From Kumtagia ephedrae (lineage in GTDB: Bacteria > Pseudomonadota > Alphaproteobacteria > Rhizobiales > Rhizobiaceae), in NCBI RefSeq assembly GCF_003012745.1, contig NZ_PXYK01000007.1:62001-126000 (forward strand): 64,000 nt of DNA. The letters are read 5' to 3'. The first letter of the stretch is position 1. Every line of letters starts with the position of its first letter. Below, piece after piece: positions 2 through 7,896 of the stretch. The notes beneath the pieces were generated by a model. The model saw only the letters and a program-made list of their open reading frames with translations, was not told where the DNA came from and made no database searches. Position numbers and translations under genes: made by a program.

Positions 2-532
2 GCGCTCGACGCCAATGTGCGCCGGGATCTGCGCCGCTGGCTACGCGAGATCCATGACGAGCTCGGCATCACCACGCTGTTCGTCACCCATGACCAGGAG
101 GAAGCGCTCGACCTCGCCGACCGCGTCGTCATCCTGAACGAAGGAAAGATCGTCCAGCAGGGCACGCCCGAAGAGGTCTGCCGCGCGCCGGCCACCGCCT
201 TCGTGATGAAGTTCCTCGGCGACACCAACCGCCTGCGCGCCACCGTCAAGGATGGCATCGCCTCGCTCGACGGCCTGACGCTCGACGCCGCCGGCTGTCC
301 CGACGGCCCGGCCGACATCTATCTGCGTCCCGGCGACCTCGAATGGACCAGCGAGGGCGACGGCGTCGCAGCCACGGTTTCGCGCGTCATCGACAGGCCG
401 GACGGCCGCCGCCTGTCTGTCCGTACCGGAAGTGGTGAAACGGCTGAGCTCGACGTGCCGCCGGAAACCGTCGTCGCGGCGGGCGACCGCGGCGTTCTGC
501 GGGTGGTGCGCATGCGGGTTTTCGCGGCTTGA
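2..532 (+). CDS. cysA: Sulfate/thiosulfate ABC transporter ATP-binding subunit, C-terminal part
   Basis: The gene starts before the window; about 176 C-terminal residues are visible. The frame opens in the D-loop (ALDA) that follows Walker B. The switch histidine follows in FVTHDQEEALDLADR, then LNEGKIVQQGTPEEV and FLGDTNR, and a C-terminal tail matching the regulatory/TOBE part of CysA-type importers. The cytoplasmic subunit hydrolyses ATP to drive sulfate or thiosulfate uptake. The identity rests on these motifs and on the sulfur genes that follow. Walker A and B lie outside the window, so a related oxyanion or spermidine-type ATPase cannot be fully excluded. Confidence 0.8.
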   Translation, partial: ALDANVRRDLRRWLREIHDELGITTLFVTHDQEEALDLADRVVILNEGKIVQQGTPEEVCRAPATAFVMKFLGDTNRLRATVKDGIASLDGLTLDAAGCPDGPADIYLRPGDLEWTSEGDGVAATVSRVIDRPDGRRLSVRTGSGETAELDVPPETVVAAGDRGVLRVVRMRVFAA

Positions 533-565
533 AGGCCAAGGAGCCTGCTGGCGTGCTTCCCTAAT

Positions 566-582
566 CCTATTTTTTCTATAGA
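566..582. promoter_or_regulatory. Candidate Rrf2 operator, site 1
   Basis: CCTATTTTTTCTATAGA lies between cysA and the Rrf2 gene. It fits the (T/C)CTA-N9-TAGA pattern also found at 4193 and 4966, with one mismatch in the first half-site. A weaker copy (TTTC-N9-TAGA, 715-731) is closer to the Rrf2 start. Autoregulation by the Rrf2 protein is an inference. The rest of 533-817 shows no gene I can support. Confidence 0.45.
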
Positions 583-817
583 CTTTGCCTGCACCCTTGG
601 ACCGTCCCGCCACGAGGCCGAACGACGCCAATGAAGCCGTTTTTGCTCGAAAACGTCGAGAGTCGACATGGATATTTCCGGATTCGTCGTAGAAATGACG
701 AAAAATCAACGCATTTTCACTTGTTTATAGACTCACTCAAAATTACTCGGGGCGGATGCGAGCCCTTCCCGCATACGCATCGGGCTTTCTCAGGCAACAC
801 AAAGAAACCGCAGAAAA

Positions 818-1267
818 ATGCTCACCAAGAAAGGCAAGTACGGGCTGAAGGCTCTCATCCACCTGTCGCAGATACCCGAGGGCCGGCTGGCATTCGTCAA
901 CGACATCGCCAAGACGAACAACATCCCGAAGAAGTTCCTCGACGCCATCCTCAGCGAGCTGCGCAACGCCGGCTTCGTGCAGAGCCGCAAGGGCAAGGAC
1001 GGCGGCTACCGGCTGTCCCGGCCGGCCGCCGAGATCCGGATTGGCCACGTCATCCGCGTGCTCGACGGTCCGCTGGCGCCCATCCCCTGCGCCAGTCACA
1101 CGCAGTACCAGCGCTGCGAGGATTGCGACGAGGCGACCTGCCAGGTCCGGCACATGATGCTGGAGGTGCGCCACGCGATCGCCTCGGTGCTGGACAACCG
1201 CAGCCTCGAGCAGATGCGCGACGCTGCCAACGACGACGTCGCGGCGTTGCTGAAGTATCAGGCCTGA
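818..1267 (+). CDS. Rrf2 family transcriptional regulator, probably for sulfur metabolism
   Basis: A 149-aa protein with the Rrf2 winged helix (residues 1-75), including the wing KGKDGGYRLSRPA. The C-terminal part has four cysteines (C91, C100, C103, C108), the last three close together in RCEDCDEATC, which could hold an Fe-S cluster or sense thiols. The family includes IscR, NsrR, RirA and CymR. The neighbours (cysA before, transsulfuration and flavin monooxygenase genes after) suggest a CymR-like role in sulfur or cysteine control; this is inferred. It differs from the RirA at 18811 in its cysteine pattern. The start follows CACAAAGAAACCGCAGAAAA, which has no strong ribosome site. Confidence 0.85.
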   Translation: MLTKKGKYGLKALIHLSQIPEGRLAFVNDIAKTNNIPKKFLDAILSELRNAGFVQSRKGKDGGYRLSRPAAEIRIGHVIRVLDGPLAPIPCASHTQYQRCEDCDEATCQVRHMMLEVRHAIASVLDNRSLEQMRDAANDDVAALLKYQA

Positions 1268-1304
1268 GGCCGCCGCTCGCCGGCCGGGCGATCGCACTTC
1301 AGTC

Positions 1305-1447
1305 CACCCCCACCCCTAATCCCTCCCCGCAAGGGGGAGGGGAATCGTGCCGCGCCTCTGCCAGACGCCAATCGGCGGCGATTTCGCCCGGCATAGCGGC
1401 CGCAAAGTTCCCCTCCCCCTTGTGGGGAGGGGTTAGGGGTGGGGGTG
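1305..1447. repeat. Large intergenic inverted repeat, C/G-rich type
   Basis: Two arms of about 38 nt (1305-1342 and 1410-1447) are near-perfect inverse copies, differing at about two positions in the 30 nt I compared. Each arm itself contains a small stem (CCTCCCCGCAAGGGGGAGG). The loop is about 67 nt. It lies between the Rrf2 gene and the FAD protein. The structure is like the mosaic palindromes (RIME type) described in rhizobia. It could form a strong mRNA hairpin separating the two genes. Confidence 0.85.
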
Positions 1448-1511
1448 CGAGGCCCCCGAACTCCTCGCCGCTTGCGACACGCGACTGCCCTCCCCCTTAC
1501 GGGGCGCGCGC

Positions 1512-2864
1512 GTGAGCGGTCGGCAGCGCTCCTCGATCGCCATCGTCGGCGGCGGAGCCAGCGGCGTGCTGCTCGCCGCGCATCTGCTCAGGTCGCCGCA
1601 GCCCGACCTGCGCGTCACCCTGATCGAGAAGGCGCCGACCTTCGGACGCGGGCGGGCCTATTCGACCACGTTACCCGACCATGTCCTCAACGTCAGCGCC
1701 CTCGGCATGAGCGCCTATGCCGACGACCCCGAGCATTTTTGGCGCTGGGTGCGCGAAAACGGCATCGTCACCGACGGCAATCCCGCCGTCTACCTGCCGC
1801 GCGCCATCTATGGGCGGTATCTGGAGGAACTGCTGGCCGACATTGTCCAACGCGAGGGCGACCGGCTGCGGGTGGTGCGGGAAACCTGCGCAGGGCTCAT
1901 GCCGACGGCCTCCGGTGTCGACGTGCAGCTGGCGAACGGCACCAGCATCGCCTGCCACGCCGCGGTGCTGGCCGTCGGCCACGACGAGGAACCGTCCCCC
2001 GAGCATCCGCTCTCTGTCCGCATCGATTCGCCGGCGGATACGCCGCTCGCCCCGCAGGCGCGTGTGCTCATCCTCGGCACCGGTCTCAGCATGGTCGACG
2101 CATGGCTGACGCTGCAGCATCGCGGCCATCGCGGCGAGGTCGTCGCGGTCTCGCGCCGCGGGCTGCTGCCCTCGCCGCACCGCAAGGGCAAGCCGATCCG
2201 CCTCGACATCGCCGACGTGCCTCTCGGCACCGAGCTGTCCTATTTCGTCGGCTGGCTGCGCGACCTCATCCGCGCGACCCAAAGGGCCGGCGGCGACTGG
2301 CGCGACGTTCTCGACGGCCTACGCCCGTTCAACCAGAGCGTCTGGCAGAGTTGGCCGGCTTCGGCGAAGCGCCGCTTCATCGAGCACACGAAGGCCTGGT
2401 GGGACATCCATCGCCACCGCATGGCGCCGGCAATCCATATGCGCATCGACGCGGCGGTGAGGGGCGGGCGCATCCGCCTCGTGGCGGCGCGCATCGAGAG
2501 CATGACGAAACACGATGGCCGTATCGCGGTGGCGCTGCAGCATCGCCATTCGCGGGCGCCCGAGACCATCGAAGCCGACCGCGTCTACGACTGCACCGGG
2601 ATCGTCAAGGATCTGTCCGCCGGCTCGATCGCGGTGGTGCGTGCGCTGATCGACCGCGGCCTGGCACGCCCCGACGCGCTAAAACTCGGCCTCGACGTGA
2701 CCGATGGCTGCGCCGTCATCGCCGACAACGGCTCGGCGTCGGACAAGCTGTTCGCCGTCGGCCCGCTGACCCGCGGTACCTTCTTCGAGATCGAGGCGAT
2801 CCCTGACATCCGCACGCAATGCGCCGGGCTTGCGAGGACATTGCTCGGGCACGCCGGGACCTGA
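1512..2864 (+). CDS. FAD/NAD(P)-binding oxidoreductase-like protein
   Basis: A 450-aa protein with an N-terminal dinucleotide fold (IAIVGGGASGVLLAAHLL, about residues 9-26) followed by LIEKAPTFGRGRAYS. A second glycine-rich strand, VLILGTGLSMVDAW, sits near residue 180. The layout matches the FAD-NAD(P)-binding family (PF13454), whose substrates are mostly unknown. The C-terminus has the FAVGPLTRGTFFEIEAIPDI segment typical of this group. The proposed start is GTG with a poor ribosome site, just after a large palindrome, so expression may be uncoupled from the Rrf2 gene. A redox role in sulfur assimilation is suggested only by position. Confidence 0.75.
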   Translation: MSGRQRSSIAIVGGGASGVLLAAHLLRSPQPDLRVTLIEKAPTFGRGRAYSTTLPDHVLNVSALGMSAYADDPEHFWRWVRENGIVTDGNPAVYLPRAIYGRYLEELLADIVQREGDRLRVVRETCAGLMPTASGVDVQLANGTSIACHAAVLAVGHDEEPSPEHPLSVRIDSPADTPLAPQARVLILGTGLSMVDAWLTLQHRGHRGEVVAVSRRGLLPSPHRKGKPIRLDIADVPLGTELSYFVGWLRDLIRATQRAGGDWRDVLDGLRPFNQSVWQSWPASAKRRFIEHTKAWWDIHRHRMAPAIHMRIDAAVRGGRIRLVAARIESMTKHDGRIAVALQHRHSRAPETIEADRVYDCTGIVKDLSAGSIAVVRALIDRGLARPDALKLGLDVTDGCAVIADNGSASDKLFAVGPLTRGTFFEIEAIPDIRTQCAGLARTLLGHAGT

Positions 2865-2900
2865 CGGCGGCAGACGACGCCGATCGCCGCGTTATGACAA

Positions 2901-2923
2901 GGGCCGGCGTCTGGCGCCGGCTC
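2901..2923. terminator. Candidate hairpin between convergent genes
   Basis: GCCGGCG-TCTGG-CGCCGGC (2903-2921) forms a 7-bp all-GC stem between the convergent ends of the FAD protein (2864) and the flavin monooxygenase (2946). There is no T-run, so it may help Rho-dependent or bidirectional termination rather than act as a classic intrinsic terminator. Confidence 0.4.
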
Positions 2924-2945
2924 TCCATCGGTGAAGCGTATCCGT

Positions 2946-3914
2946 TCAGTGATGCCGCAACAGGTCCGGCGCCGACAGCCCGGCCGACAGGACGGGGCGG
3001 AAGGGACGGCCTGGCCATGCCACCTCGGGCGAAAGCCGCCGCTCGGCGGCATCCCGGATGGCGGGCGCGATCCGGTCGCCGAAGGCGGCGATCGTCTCCA
3101 CCGTGTTCAGATCATGGATCATCAGCTCCGAGACGCCGAGCGATGCGTAAGGCAGAAGCGCTTGCGCAAGCCGCTCGGGCGAGCCGGCCCGGATGGCGGC
3201 GTCCATTGCATCGTCGGCTGTCCCGCCGTGCTGCCAATGCCGCAGGCTGAGCGGCAGGGCGAAGCCGACCTTGCCCGACCGCCCCCGCTCGGCCGCGGCG
3301 GCCAGCACGCGTCCGATCACATGGCGCAGCTGATCGGGCGCCCCGTAGGGCAGCTCGAAGACGTCGGCATGGCGACCGGCGACGCGGAAGGCGGTGCCCG
3401 ACAGGCCGTTCATGCGCACCGGTATGTCGGCGCCGCGCGGCCCCTTGCGCGGCACGAAGCCGGCGCGCAAGCTGTAGGCTGGACCTTCGTGATCGAAGGG
3501 CGACGTATTCGCCCACAGGCGCTTCAGCAGCACCAGATATTCGTCGGTCCGGGCCAGTGCCTCGACATGCGTGGTGGCATCGATATCGCCACCAGCCGTC
3601 ATCCGCAGCGCCAGCCTGCCGCCGCTGATGGCATCCAACGCCGCCAGCTGGCGCGCCGCAACGGCCGGCTCTATATCGCCGGCCCAGTGTGTCAGGGCGA
3701 TGTCGATCCCGCCGGAGGCCCGGACCGCTTCGGCGGCGATGTCCATGTTGGTCAGCAGCCCGCCGGCGTCGTCGACGACCAGCCGCGAGAATCCGGCACG
3801 CTCGATCGCGGCGATCCGCCGCTCGGCGTCATGGGCATCGAAGAAGAAGGACGTCGCGACACCTCCGCTGGCGGCGCGAGACGGACCGGCGACATGGGAA
3901 AATGCGAGTTGCAT
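2946..3914 (-). CDS. LLM-class flavin-dependent oxidoreductase
   Basis: A 322-aa bacterial luciferase-like monooxygenase, a TIM-barrel FMNH2-using enzyme. Recognisable segments are AHDAERRIAAIERAGFSRLVVDD, ISGGRLALRMTAGGD in the middle, TDEYLVLLKRLW, the SGTAFRVAGRHADVFEL region, and a C-terminal RAGSPERLAQALLPYASLGV. This pattern fits the SsuD/SfnG side of the family, which releases sulfite from alkanesulfonates or sulfones. The sulfur neighbourhood supports organosulfur scavenging, but the substrate is not shown. It lies downstream of the 50-aa ORF at 4018-4170 and probably shares its promoter. No flavin reductase is adjacent; one is encoded at 53668. Confidence 0.8.
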   Translation of the reverse strand: MQLAFSHVAGPSRAASGGVATSFFFDAHDAERRIAAIERAGFSRLVVDDAGGLLTNMDIAAEAVRASGGIDIALTHWAGDIEPAVAARQLAALDAISGGRLALRMTAGGDIDATTHVEALARTDEYLVLLKRLWANTSPFDHEGPAYSLRAGFVPRKGPRGADIPVRMNGLSGTAFRVAGRHADVFELPYGAPDQLRHVIGRVLAAAAERGRSGKVGFALPLSLRHWQHGGTADDAMDAAIRAGSPERLAQALLPYASLGVSELMIHDLNTVETIAAFGDRIAPAIRDAAERRLSPEVAWPGRPFRPVLSAGLSAPDLLRHH

Positions 3915-4017
3915 GGGACACTCCTTCGCCTTCCGCGCGCCAGCCGGCGCGAACGGTCAGTCAGAAACGCGAGCGGATTGTTCCGGGTATCCGGTTGGAA
4001 GCGGCCGGACGGCCGCT

Positions 4018-4170
4018 TCAGGCAACGAAGCCGAGCACCAGGGCCGCGGCGAAGGCCACCGCTGCGAGGAACACGGCGTGCGCCGCTACCGAAGCCAACG
4101 AGGAGCCGGCCGAGGCATTCTGGGAGCGCGACGCGGAGCGGGTTTCGGACAGGTTTTGAGTGTGAGCCAC
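4018..4170 (-). CDS. Small predicted single-pass membrane protein, 50 aa
   Basis: A GTG-started ORF preceded by a strong ribosome site (GAGGAGG, 4176-4182, about 5 nt before the start). The first 26 residues are polar and serine-rich. The last 24 (VAAHAVFLAAVAFAAALVLG and a few more) form one convincing transmembrane helix. Candidate operator 4193-4209 lies immediately upstream and the flavin monooxygenase gene immediately downstream, so this is probably the first gene of that transcript. I do not recognise the family. The ribosome site, helix and position argue that it is a real gene; no function is proposed. Confidence 0.6.
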   Translation of the reverse strand: MAHTQNLSETRSASRSQNASAGSSLASVAAHAVFLAAVAFAAALVLGFVA

Positions 4171-4192
4171 GGCAACCTCCTCTTTCCCTTAG

Positions 4193-4209
4193 TCTATAAA
4201 ATAAGTAGA
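4193..4209. promoter_or_regulatory. Candidate Rrf2 operator, site 2
   Basis: TCTATAAAATAAGTAGA matches TCTA-N9-TAGA exactly. It lies 23 nt upstream of the 50-aa ORF start (4170), where the promoter for that ORF and the flavin monooxygenase would be expected. Read on the minus strand it ends TTTATAGAC, like site 1. Control by the Rrf2 protein at 818 is inferred. Confidence 0.5.
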
Positions 4210-4282
4210 TTTTGTCGATTCCGAATTTTGCAGAGAAAGAGGAACATCATCCCTCTTCAGCCGAAGAAATTGGAACCGCATT

Positions 4283-4612
4283 TCAATTTCCGTCTCCGCG
4301 CAGCCGTTCCACGCAAACAGCCCGCATCAGGAAGGCGGCCTGCGCATAGGTGGCCGCGTCGTCGTCAAGCTCGGCTGCGCGCTCGCCGAGAACGATCTTG
4401 ACCGAATCCAGTGTGCGGACCGGCAGGATATCGGTACAGGTGCGCATGCGGCCGAAGACGGAGCTGATCGGCACCGCCTTGCCGTCGAGATCGACGGCCG
4501 GCTCGCCGACATCGAAATTCCAGTCCTCATAGGCATCCAGAGCCTCCTGGAAGGCGAGGTGAAGAAAGATCGGCGCATGGCCTTCGTACAGCGGGGGAAG
4601 AACTCGGGTCAT
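4283..4612 (-). CDS. Unknown protein, 109 aa, in the sulfur region
   Basis: A soluble, acidic protein with no signal peptide or membrane segment. It begins MTRVLPPLYEGHAPIFLHLA and contains two cysteines (in RTCTD and RAVCVERL). A ribosome site (AGAGGAG) lies 8 nt upstream of the ATG. I do not recognise the family. It follows the 52-aa ORF on the same strand (104-nt gap) and precedes operator site 2, so it probably belongs to the transcript starting near 4925. A separate promoter then serves the 50-aa ORF and flavin monooxygenase. Confidence 0.6.
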   Translation of the reverse strand: MTRVLPPLYEGHAPIFLHLAFQEALDAYEDWNFDVGEPAVDLDGKAVPISSVFGRMRTCTDILPVRTLDSVKIVLGERAAELDDDAATYAQAAFLMRAVCVERLRGDGN

Positions 4613-4716
4613 GGCATGGCTCCTCTGGCCGATTTCGCTTTCTGGCGCAATCGCGGCCGAACAGGCCGCTCAAGGCTCGACTGTCGAAAGGGTTGCGGGT
4701 GGGGCTTTTGAGCGGC

Positions 4717-4875
4717 TCACCAATGGCCGTTCATGCACCAGCCCCAATAGAACGACTCATCACGCGTCAGACGATCCTTGTCGTCAGGCGCGGTGCGGCC
4801 GTCTGCTTGGGTCTGGCGGGCCGGCGAAAGAAAGGCCCGCAGGCGGTCGATCAGCGACCGGACTTTCTGTGTCAT
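4717..4875 (-). CDS. Small unknown protein, 52 aa
   Basis: An ATG ORF with a strong ribosome site (GGGGAGGAG, about 5 nt upstream) and a near-consensus promoter 50 nt further up. The N-terminus (KVRSLIDRLRAFLSP) could form a short amphipathic helix. The middle is polar and charged, and the C-terminus is aromatic (SFYWGWCMNGHW) with one cysteine. No family is recognised. The fit between promoter, ribosome site and ORF makes it one of the better supported small genes here. A role in sulfur limitation is suggested only by the operator-like palindromes in its promoter region. Confidence 0.6.
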   Translation of the reverse strand: MTQKVRSLIDRLRAFLSPARQTQADGRTAPDDKDRLTRDESFYWGWCMNGHW

Positions 4876-4931
4876 CGTCAACTCCTCCCCATGCGATTGC
4901 GGACGGTTGGCAGAACGGCACGTCTGTCACG

Positions 4932-4960
4932 GATTATGACTCCTGATTTCAGGATGTCAA
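4932..4960 (-). promoter_or_regulatory. Near-consensus sigma-70 promoter with palindromic spacer
   Basis: On the minus strand TTGACA (4955-4960) and ATAATC (4932-4937) are separated by exactly 17 nt. The last 14 nt of the spacer are TCCTGAAATCAGGA (4941-4954), an inverted repeat with 6-bp perfect arms. A start near 4925 would give a leader of about 50 nt to the 52-aa ORF. A repressor bound in the spacer would block RNA polymerase; which protein binds is unknown. Confidence 0.65.
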
Positions 4961-4965
4961 CAATG

Positions 4966-4982
4966 TCTACTAGAATTATAGA
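4966..4982. promoter_or_regulatory. Candidate Rrf2 operator, site 3
   Basis: TCTACTAGAATTATAGA matches TCTA-N9-TAGA exactly. It ends 5 nt upstream of the -35 box of the promoter at 4932-4960. It sits between that leftward promoter and the rightward transsulfuration operon, so it could serve either side. Confidence 0.5.
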
Positions 4983-5305
4983 TTAATGAATCGAAGCAAT
5001 GACTTAACGTCTGGTACCGCTGTGGATGGCATCGCCCGAGCCGCGGCGGGCTTGCTGCTCGCCTCGAAAATCCATTGGAAGCCGGTAGAATCTTCCTGAA
5101 AATGGGTCGTTTTCCCGCGGGCACTGAAACATAAATCCCGAATTCGCTCGAATAATAGTGAATGCTGCCTTCTTCGGAACAAGCCGCTTGTGAGATGAGG
5201 GCGGCCGGCAACGCGATGCCGGTCATGCGCGTTTGCTGATAAGCTCCGACAGGTGAATCGCCCCGGCGCAGTGCCGGGCGTTCGGCCGGCAACAGGGAGG
5301 CAGGA
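4983..5305. other. Upstream region of the transsulfuration operon
   Basis: About 320 nt without a gene I can support. It holds an AT-rich patch (AATAATAGTG near 5151) and must contain the promoter and leader of the cystathionine beta-synthase gene, but I see no clear -35/-10 pair. A 37-codon ORF at 4986-5099 has no ribosome site and is not called. The only clear regulatory element nearby is the palindrome at 4966-4982. Confidence 0.5.
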
Positions 5306-6730
5306 ATGAGCGTCCATGCGGTATCGGCATCAGACGGTAACAAGGGGCGGCTCAGGCCGCCTTACAGCTCCGTCCTCGACCTGATCGGCGAGACGCCCGT
5401 CGTCGAACTCACACGTTTCGATACCGGCAAGTGCCGGTTGTTCGTCAAGCTGGAGAGCCAGAACCCCGGCGGCTCGATCAAGGACCGCATCGCGCTATCG
5501 ATGATCGCCGACGCCGAGCGCTATGGAAGGCTGGCGCCGGGCGGCACCATCGTCGAGGCCACCGCCGGCAACACCGGGCTCGGTCTCGCCCAGGTCGGCA
5601 TCCCCAAGGGTTATCGCATCGTGCTGGTCGTTCCCGACAAGATGTCGCGCGAGAAGATCCAGCATCTTAGGGCGCTAGGTGCCGAAGTGCGGCTGACCCG
5701 CTCCGACGTCGGCAAGGGCCATCCCGAATATTATCAGGACATGGCGGAAAAGATCGCCGCCGACACGCCCGGCGCCTTCTACGTCAACCAGTTCGCCAAT
5801 CCGGCCAATCCGCTGGCGCATGAGACGACCACCGGGCCTGAGATCTGGAGCCAGCTCGGCGAGAAGGTCGATGCCGTGGTGGTCGGCGTCGGCTCCGGCG
5901 GCACGCTGACGGGGCTCGGACGCTTCTTCGCGAAAGTTTCGCCCAAGACCGAGATGGTGCTGGCCGACCCGGTGGGATCGGTGCTCGCGCCCTACGTCAA
6001 GACCGGCGAGCTCGGCCAAGCCGGTAGCTGGACGGTGGAAGGCATCGGCGAGGACTTTATTCCGCCCAACTGCGACCTTTCCCTCGTCAGGAAGGCCTAT
6101 TCGATCACCGACAAGCACAGCATGCTGGCGGTGCGCGACCTGTTGTCCAGGGAGGGCATCCTCGCCGGCTCCTCGTCCGGCACGCTGCTCGCCGCCGCCC
6201 TGCGCTACTGCCGCGAGCAGACCGCGCCGAAGCGCGTCGTCACCTTCGTGTGCGACAGCGGCAACAAATATCTGTCGAAGGTGTTCGACGATTTCTGGCT
6301 GGCCGAACAGGGCCTTGCAGAGCGCGAGCAGCATGGCGACCTGCGCGACATCGTCGCCCGCTCGCATCGCGAGGGCGGTACAGTCTTCGTCGGGCCGCAG
6401 GACACGCTGCTCACCGCCTATGGCCGCATGCGCCGCGGCGACGTCTCGCAGCTGCCGGTGCTCGACGACGGAAAGCTGGTCGGCATCGTCGACGAGAGCG
6501 ACATTCTTGCCGTGCTGGAAGGCCCCTACGAAGGCCGCTGGGACCGCTTCAGCGCGCCCGTCAGTTCGGCGATGACCGCCGACCTGCACACGCTGCAGGC
6601 AAGCCAGACGCTCGACGCGCTGCTGCCGGTGTTCGAGCGCAACGAGGTGGCGATCGTCTTCGACGGCGACGAATTCTTCGGCCTCATCACGCGGGTCGAT
6701 CTCATCAACCATCTGAGGCGCAATCGATGA
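5306..6730 (+). CDS. Cystathionine beta-synthase with C-terminal CBS pair
   Basis: A 474-aa cytoplasmic PLP enzyme condensing homocysteine with serine to cystathionine, the first step of reverse transsulfuration. The PLP lysine is K59 in NPGGSIKDRIALS. The substrate loop EATAGNTGLGLA and phosphate-binding GVGSGGTLTG are present. The catalytic domain ends near residue 335. A CBS-domain pair follows (VGPQDTLLTAYGRMRRGDVS, then DLHTLQASQTLDALLPVF), a module that often binds adenosyl ligands. The start has ribosome site GGGAGG at 5285-5290. The stop overlaps the next start by ATGA, so the two enzymes are translationally coupled. A plain cysteine synthase is unlikely given the CBS pair and partner. 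Confidence 0.9.
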   Translation: MSVHAVSASDGNKGRLRPPYSSVLDLIGETPVVELTRFDTGKCRLFVKLESQNPGGSIKDRIALSMIADAERYGRLAPGGTIVEATAGNTGLGLAQVGIPKGYRIVLVVPDKMSREKIQHLRALGAEVRLTRSDVGKGHPEYYQDMAEKIAADTPGAFYVNQFANPANPLAHETTTGPEIWSQLGEKVDAVVVGVGSGGTLTGLGRFFAKVSPKTEMVLADPVGSVLAPYVKTGELGQAGSWTVEGIGEDFIPPNCDLSLVRKAYSITDKHSMLAVRDLLSREGILAGSSSGTLLAAALRYCREQTAPKRVVTFVCDSGNKYLSKVFDDFWLAEQGLAEREQHGDLRDIVARSHREGGTVFVGPQDTLLTAYGRMRRGDVSQLPVLDDGKLVGIVDESDILAVLEGPYEGRWDRFSAPVSSAMTADLHTLQASQTLDALLPVFERNEVAIVFDGDEFFGLITRVDLINHLRRNR

Positions 6731-7896
6731 CCCTTGAGCGCAGGAACCGGCTGGCCTTCTCGACCCGCACCATCCATGGCGGCCAGAGCCACGATCCGAC
6801 CACCGGCGCGGTGATGGTGCCGATCTACGCCACCTCCACCTACGGCCAGCAGAGCCCGGGCGTGCACAAGGGTTTCGAATACGCCCGCAGCCAGAACCCG
6901 ACACGCTTCGCCTTCGAGCGCGCCGTGGCCGATCTCGAAAGCGGCACCGCCGCCTTCGCCTTCGCATCGGGCCTTGCGGCGATCGGCACGGTGCTGGAGC
7001 TGTTCGATTCGGGCGCCCACATCGTCGCCACCGACGACATCTATGGCGGCACCTTCCGGCTGTTGGAGCGGGTGAGAAAGCGCTCGGCCGGATTGCAGAC
7101 GAGCTTCGTCGACTTCACCAACCTCGCCGCAGTCGAGGCGGCGATCCGGCCGGAGACGAAGCTGCTGTGGGTGGAGACCCCGACCAACCCGTTGCTCAGG
7201 GTCGTCGACCTCGAAGCCGTGGCGACGCTCGCCCGCCGCAAGGGGCTGCTGTCGGTCGCCGACAACACCTTCTGCAGCCCCTACCTGCAACGGCCGCTGG
7301 AGCTCGGCATCGACATCGTCGTGCATTCGACGACGAAATACCTCAACGGCCATTCGGACATGGTCGGCGGCGTGGCGGTGGTGGGTGACAACCGCGACCT
7401 CGCCGATCGGCTGAAATTTTTGCAGAACGCGGTCGGCGCCATTTCCGGGCCGTTCGACAGCTTCCTGGCACTGCGCGGCCTCAAGACGCTGGCGCTACGT
7501 ATGGAGCGGCACTCCGCCAACGGCGAAAAGATCGCGCGCTGGCTGGAAGGCCGCGGCGACGTGCGCCGCGTCCTCTATCCCGGCCTCGCCAGCCACCCGC
7601 AGCATGAAATCGCCAGGCGACAGATGCACGCCTTCGGCGGCATGATCTCGGTCGAGCTCGACCGCGACCTCGCCGGCACCAAGCGCTTCCTCGAGCACAC
7701 GCATCTGTTCACGCTGGCCGAAAGCCTCGGCGGTGTGGAAAGCCTGATCGAGCACCCTGCCCTGATGACGCACGGCTCGATCCCGCCCGAGCAGCGCGCG
7801 GCCATCGGCATCTCCGATTCGCTGGTGCGGCTGTCGGCCGGCATCGAGGACGGCGACGACCTTATCGCCGACCTGGAGCAGGCGCTGAAGGCGTAG
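6727..7896 (+). CDS. Cystathionine gamma-lyase/synthase-type PLP enzyme
   Basis: A 389-aa member of the Cys/Met metabolism PLP family. It begins FSTRTIHGGQSHDPTTGAV and contains SGLAAIGTVLEL, VETPTNPLLRVVDL, the cofactor aspartate in VADNTF, and PLP lysine K204 in HSTTKYLNGHSD. The C-terminal ESLGGVESLIEHPALMTH segment is typical. Overlap with the beta-synthase gene (ATGA) argues for a gamma-lyase acting next in reverse transsulfuration to give cysteine, 2-oxobutyrate and ammonia. Sequence alone does not separate gamma-lyase from gamma-synthase, so the direction is inferred from context. Confidence 0.9.
   Translation: MTLERRNRLAFSTRTIHGGQSHDPTTGAVMVPIYATSTYGQQSPGVHKGFEYARSQNPTRFAFERAVADLESGTAAFAFASGLAAIGTVLELFDSGAHIVATDDIYGGTFRLLERVRKRSAGLQTSFVDFTNLAAVEAAIRPETKLLWVETPTNPLLRVVDLEAVATLARRKGLLSVADNTFCSPYLQRPLELGIDIVVHSTTKYLNGHSDMVGGVAVVGDNRDLADRLKFLQNAVGAISGPFDSFLALRGLKTLALRMERHSANGEKIARWLEGRGDVRRVLYPGLASHPQHEIARRQMHAFGGMISVELDRDLAGTKRFLEHTHLFTLAESLGGVESLIEHPALMTHGSIPPEQRAAIGISDSLVRLSAGIEDGDDLIADLEQALKA

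Follow-up and report, generated by a model that had tools for sequence, protein, structure and literature searches.

Background

The target set of CysB of Escherichia coli, a regulator of the LysR family, is comparable to that of the sulfur regulon proposed here, and three other regulators, IscR, NsrR and RsrR, have the Rrf2 fold that is modelled for the protein described below, with other target genes. That protein is encoded in a sulfur region of a 64,000-nucleotide stretch of the genome of Kumtagia ephedrae (contig NZ_PXYK01000007.1, positions 62,001 to 126,000), referred to throughout as the window, and palindromes in three gaps of this region had been proposed from the sequence as operators of a small, local Rrf2 regulon for sulfur supply (the original prediction). 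The closest solved fold, and about the closest solved sequence, is that of CymR, the Rrf2-family repressor of cysteine metabolism in Bacillus subtilis and Staphylococcus aureus; the predicted operators before sulfur genes suggest that the window's protein, too, may act on genes for sulfur and cysteine. CymR has no iron-sulfur (Fe-S) cluster, according to the accessible part of PMC9338935, whereas the Rrf2 class of the window has four invariant cysteines. RirA, a member of the same family from the same order (Rhizobiales), has the operator TGA-N9-TCA, according to the accessible part of PMC8822346, and so shares the N9 layout of the window's palindromes; it differs in its half-site and in its iron targets from the core CTA-N9-TAG and the sulfur-gene targets found here. 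TauR, a member of the GntR family, is a taurine-specific regulator (PMC4254191, as far as its accessible text goes).

No description of the regulon was found in the literature searched, which left out most subscription papers and RegPrecise, where it may already be known; the accessible parts of PMC4344238, PMC4254191 and PMC11423573 hold nothing that matches it.

Results and discussion

Predicted operators in the window

The palindromes are likely to be operators of a genome-wide sulfur-acquisition regulon, read most plausibly by a dimer of the CymR-like Rrf2 protein of the window. This reading draws on the sites themselves, their conservation, the genes that they precede, their co-occurrence with the Rrf2 class and the CymR-like fold of the protein model. 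The link between Rrf2 and sulfur genes that the original prediction had drawn is thus upheld by conservation, target genes and co-occurrence, with binding still a matter of prediction, while the small extent and a fourth, weaker copy of the palindrome have to be given up.

Re-reading of the window bore out the three palindromes (Table 1) in position and sequence, and one strand reads TAGAC at each of them. The bare core CTA-N9-TAG has three matches in 64 kb, all in the sulfur region, where 0.96 are expected; at least three were reached by 7 of 100 shuffles of the window, so the bare core in the window alone is weak evidence, and the sites are credible mainly through their conservation, which is decisive, and not through the core count. 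A 25-bp matrix built from 23 sites, all outside the window's genus, picks exactly three sites in the window, and these are the three palindromes; the next window position scores 2.0, and the highest score across 100 simulated windows was 12.9. The supposed weaker copy at 715-731 has two mismatches in its left half and a matrix score below zero, and is ruled out as an operator, not being among the six window positions that score 0 or more.

The extended operator is WWWN-TCTAY-N7-RTAGA-NWWW, with TCTAY-N7-RTAGA as the strict core. The exact 17-bp core also matches operators of the TetR family and coding stretches, from which the sulfur sites are set apart by their flanking A/T triplets (matrix scores of 19.1-32.5 for eight sites in the window's own genome, and at most 10.9 in nine other stretches of that genome). 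Genes downstream of the extended operator are those of sulfate transport, sirohaem synthase, taurine and sulfonate uptake, flavin mononucleotide reductase, alkanesulfonate monooxygenase and transsulfuration.

Conservation around orthologous rrf2 genes

Loci of 80 rrf2 orthologues (81-93% identity), the best 80 of at least 533 confirmed candidates, contain 76 matches to TCTA-N9-TAGA and 0-7 matches to each of twelve other spacings. Upstream sequence of 7.3 kb or more was available for 68 loci (the other 12 were too short and were left out). In 60 of these the palindrome stands at -4 to -7 kb, and for 57 of the 60 sites the signature of Sbp, the sulfate-binding protein, follows after 141-143 bp; the reversed control occurs in 2 of the 68. 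The palindrome is conserved in these loci, several kilobases upstream of the orthologous Rrf2 genes, although the loci belong to close relatives and their sites are not independent events.

Further sites and target genes

At least eight matching sites are present in the window's own genome, the three of the window and five more with matrix scores of 19.1-32.5. The former precede rrf2, the 50-amino-acid (aa) open reading frame (ORF) with the monooxygenase, and the 52-aa/109-aa ORFs or the operon for cystathionine beta-synthase-like (CBS) and cystathionine gamma-synthase/lyase (CGL) proteins; the latter precede tauA, sbp, an NtaA/DmoA-family monooxygenase gene, ssuD and an SfnG-like monooxygenase gene. 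The sites at ssuD, the SfnG-like gene and rrf2 have one mismatch each, and the products of tauA, sbp, the NtaA/DmoA-family gene and ssuD score above curated cut-offs, that of the SfnG-like gene below. The extended operator has five exact sites in this genome, all at sulfur genes, and no control sites; the strict core has eight, against one for the reversed pattern, and with one mismatch allowed there is no excess (47 against 100). As surroundings were read for only 8 of 39 one-mismatch sites, chosen by eye, the list of targets is a lower bound.

Eight genomes picked for carrying the Rrf2 gene (G061-G068) have 56 exact sites and 33 sites of the reversed pattern. Genes facing the sites were scanned irrespective of function (105 proteins for the motif and 57 for the control). 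The motif set includes Bac_luciferase, sulfate-binding and NMT1 (taurine/sulfonate-binding) proteins (8 each), CysG (7), TetR (6) and Rrf2 (3), whereas no family occurs more than once in the control set, and none of the 25 families listed for it (of 27) concerns sulfur. By reading of the neighbours, 38 of the 56 sites face sulfur genes; among the remaining 18, TetR operators and coding stretches predominate. In seven of the eight genomes there is a site at CysG. In five loci (L139, L152, L166, L171, L175) the cysG operator is common to a divergent gene of the Host_attach/baeRF families, for which we know of no role in sulfur supply.

Co-occurrence with the Rrf2 class

Exact extended operators were counted in an even sample of 199 genomes of the family. 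Class A, the Rrf2 class of the window (cut at about 57% identity), is present in 78 of these; 17 have only the sister class B (41-48%), and 104 have neither (E <= 1e-25). At least one site was found in 54 of the 78 class A genomes and in 12 of the 104 with neither class (p = 4e-16), with 5 of 17 for B-only genomes. Total sites and control sites number 157 and 6 in class A genomes, 5 and 0 in B-only genomes, and 19 and 9 where neither class is present. Counted by genus, sites occur in 32 of 45 genera with class A and in 13 of 64 without it (p = 1.5e-7). The regulon is not a small, local one: the window's own genome has at least eight sites, and 32 of the 109 genera sampled have class A genomes with the extended signal. 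The genome sets overlap, G061 and G062 being the same as G001 and G099, respectively, in sites and coordinates.

Some sites are also physically linked to the gene: the distance to rrf2 is about 5 kb or less for 9 of the 38 exact sites of 12 other class A genomes and for all three exact sites of G017, and 14 of 51 sites are linked among the class A sites listed (157 in all). In G017 (L258, 4625), an exact site near rrf2 precedes a gene resembling an AsnC/Lrp regulator by eye.

Alternative explanations

Several observations weigh against the assignment of the palindromes to the window's Rrf2 class. In the window, sites precede the Rrf2 gene and the small ORFs as proposed, but only 2 of the 80 orthologous loci have one in the 440 bp ahead of rrf2, and autoregulation through such a site is not a conserved feature. 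No exact extended site was found in 24 of the 78 class A genomes, and among eight genera of mixed content, sites follow the class in two, run counter to it in two, occur both with and without it in one, and are absent from three. The separate scan upstream of sbp, cysG and rrf2, in which the rrf2 loci L085 and L087 are incomplete and their starts not firmly placed, gave no site before cysG in any of 11 class A genomes, including the window's own, where no site was seen even with 2 mismatches. At the nearest sbp homologue, a site with 0-1 mismatch was found in 6 of 13 genomes of class A, in 1 of 7 that are B-only and in 1 of 4 that have neither class; none of six second sbp copies scanned has one, and these include the copy from the operon that immediately precedes the window's rrf2. 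Physical linkage could merely reflect the position of rrf2 among sulfur genes, and a class B gene stands beside exact sites in G187 and G032.

One alternative is that the regulon is real but the palindrome is bound by a class B paralogue or an unrelated factor, the window's rrf2 merely sitting among sulfur genes. Class B genes, which have the same four cysteines, adjoin sbp in several genomes, and the sites in genomes with neither class and the scarcity of sites before rrf2 itself would also be explained. We nevertheless consider such an arrangement rather unlikely, since none of the 17 B-only genomes has two or more sites, as 41 of the 78 class A genomes do. The core is not enriched in B-only genomes (p = 0.55). 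No match to class B at E <= 1e-25 is present in the genome of the window itself, and two class B loci upstream of sbp (L212, L222) have a different outer half-site, CACTA-N9-TAGGG, in which CTA-N9-TAG is kept and which possibly reflects a changed operator specificity. As to an unrelated factor, no close relative of CysB was found in the 11 class A genomes searched, where the matches listed have 26-31% identity, and the window's own genome has no CysB match at E <= 1e-20.

In the second alternative, the protein would regulate iron or Fe-S genes in the manner of RirA, IscR or NsrR, and sulfur genes would be controlled only within Fe-S supply. Membership in the Rrf2 family is clear for the window's protein (123.2 bits against a cut-off of 30 for Pfam Rrf2, and 116.4 against 73.3 for TIGR00738), and four cysteines, present as originally noted, do not vary in any of the 27 relatives aligned (C91, C100, C103 and C108; C-x8-C-x2-C-x4-C), an arrangement compatible with a bound Fe-S cluster; the N9 spacing is shared with RirA. 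Little credence is given to this alternative, however, because the protein falls far below the cut-offs for RirA (NF008886, 61.7 against 193 bits), IscR (TIGR02010, 67.8 against 207.55) and NsrR (NF008240, 75 against 182), the cysteine spacing is unlike that of RirA, and the 25 commonest families adjacent to sites (of 62 Pfam and 457 NCBIfam families) include no iron-uptake or Fe-S-assembly name and are mostly of sulfur-source genes. Finally, that the palindromes are chance AT-rich matches in intergenic gaps is very unlikely in view of their conservation, the spacing control, the gene enrichment and the co-occurrence, even though the shuffled windows and the lack of excess with one mismatch would allow it.

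A probable CymR-like repressor of sulfur acquisition

Only superfamily models pass their cut-offs for the window's Rrf2 protein, and the CymR equivalog is not among them (NF047409, 88.5 against 195 bits). Its AlphaFold2 model (mean predicted local distance difference test score, pLDDT, 89.4) has CymR as its best structural match (TMt up to 0.89), and in sequence the CymR structure 2y75 (E = 4.4e-18) is level with 4cic (4e-18). The assignment of the sites to Rrf2 is probable, and the protein is probably a CymR-like, metal- or thiol-sensing repressor of sulfur acquisition, as far as can be judged from sequence and model. With an ample sulfur supply, it would repress the uptake of sulfate, taurine and sulfonates together with desulfonation; in Mesorhizobium the synthesis of the sirohaem used in sulfite reduction would be repressed as well, and transsulfuration possibly in the genome of the window. 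A shortage of sulfur would release this repression. The likely sensor would be the four-cysteine motif, through an Fe-S cluster, another metal or its thiol state. The regulon would span the family of the window's genome, with Mesorhizobium, Aminobacter and many other genera.

The site at 4193 overlaps a promoter-like pair on the minus strand (TCGACA-16-TAGACT, 4218-4191), and the site before sbp in the same genome is separated from the start codon by about 30 bp, a layout such as would be expected of a repressor. A strong promoter-like pair on the minus strand (TTGACA-16-CATAAT, 4960-4933) directly follows the site at 4966, which stands just before its -35 element, so that activation there, or dual control, is possible. 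The spacer of the latter pair is filled by a perfect palindrome, TCCTGATTTCAGGA (4941-4954), which is not conserved in the fetched rrf2 loci and is absent at the L001 orthologue.

Genes around rrf2

The cysA gene begins before the window, downstream of cysT and cysW, both of which also score above their profile cut-offs. Between rrf2 and the next gene are inverted repeats, CCCTCCCC...GGGGAGGG (1300-1445). The 50-aa ORF has relatives near the Rrf2 gene in L001, L069 and L002, and weakly in L084, and relatives of the 109-aa protein are found close to an operator in L001, L005, L006 and L009. The 52-aa ORF has a full-length relative in L001 and a weaker one in L006; a similar stretch of 16 residues occurs in L075, L150 and L168 (E = 0.012), directly before ssuA in the last two, and the ORF may be a member of a small sulfur-linked protein family.

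Table 1. Genes and predicted operators of the sulfur region of the window.
Feature	Positions	Strand	Remarks
End of cysA, sulfate ABC transporter ATPase	17..532	+	TIGR00968, 361.5 bits against a cut-off of 342.75
Predicted operator upstream of rrf2	566..582		CCTATTTTTTCTATAGA; one mismatch to strict core; 34 bp past end of cysA, 236 bp before rrf2 ATG; matrix score 22.7
Claimed weaker copy of the palindrome	715..731		rejected
Rrf2-family regulator, 149 aa	818..1267	+	four invariant cysteines
FAD/NAD(P)-binding protein	1512..2864	+	
Luciferase-like flavin monooxygenase	2946..3914	-	SfnG is the top NCBIfam model, with a score far short of its cut-off
50-aa ORF	4018..4170	-	one hydrophobic stretch (C-terminal half)
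Predicted operator before 50-aa ORF and luciferase-like monooxygenase	4193..4209		TCTATAAAATAAGTAGA; matrix score 32.1
109-aa BRA0787 family protein	4283..4612	-	
52-aa ORF	4717..4875	-	C-terminal end RDESFYWGWCMNGHW
Predicted operator between 52-aa/109-aa ORFs (-) and CBS/CGL operon (+)	4966..4982		TCTACTAGAATTATAGA; matrix score 29.4
Cystathionine beta-synthase-like protein	5306..6730	+	PALP and CBS domains; below equivalog cut-off
Cystathionine gamma-synthase/lyase family enzyme	6727..7896	+	

Significance

A gene, an operator and a list of targets are hereby proposed through which rhizobia and related bacteria would control sulfur, in a setting where a search of 11 genomes gave no close relative of CysB. 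Sulfur metabolism bears on nodules: in a cystathionine gamma-lyase mutant of Mesorhizobium loti the production of hydrogen sulfide and of other reactive sulfur species is reduced, and the title of the same paper links this to the establishment of symbiosis (PMC10522845, accessible part). A bolder proposal, held only tentatively, is that the four-cysteine Rrf2 protein of CymR fold would be the general sulfur-starvation switch of the family, in the role of CysB, and that class B with its shifted half-site would run sulfate transport in neighbouring genera. The four-cysteine motif makes the question of how sulfur supply is sensed directly testable; if the proposal is true, sulfur supply would be read through a sensor that is itself built with sulfur, a four-cysteine metal or Fe-S site.

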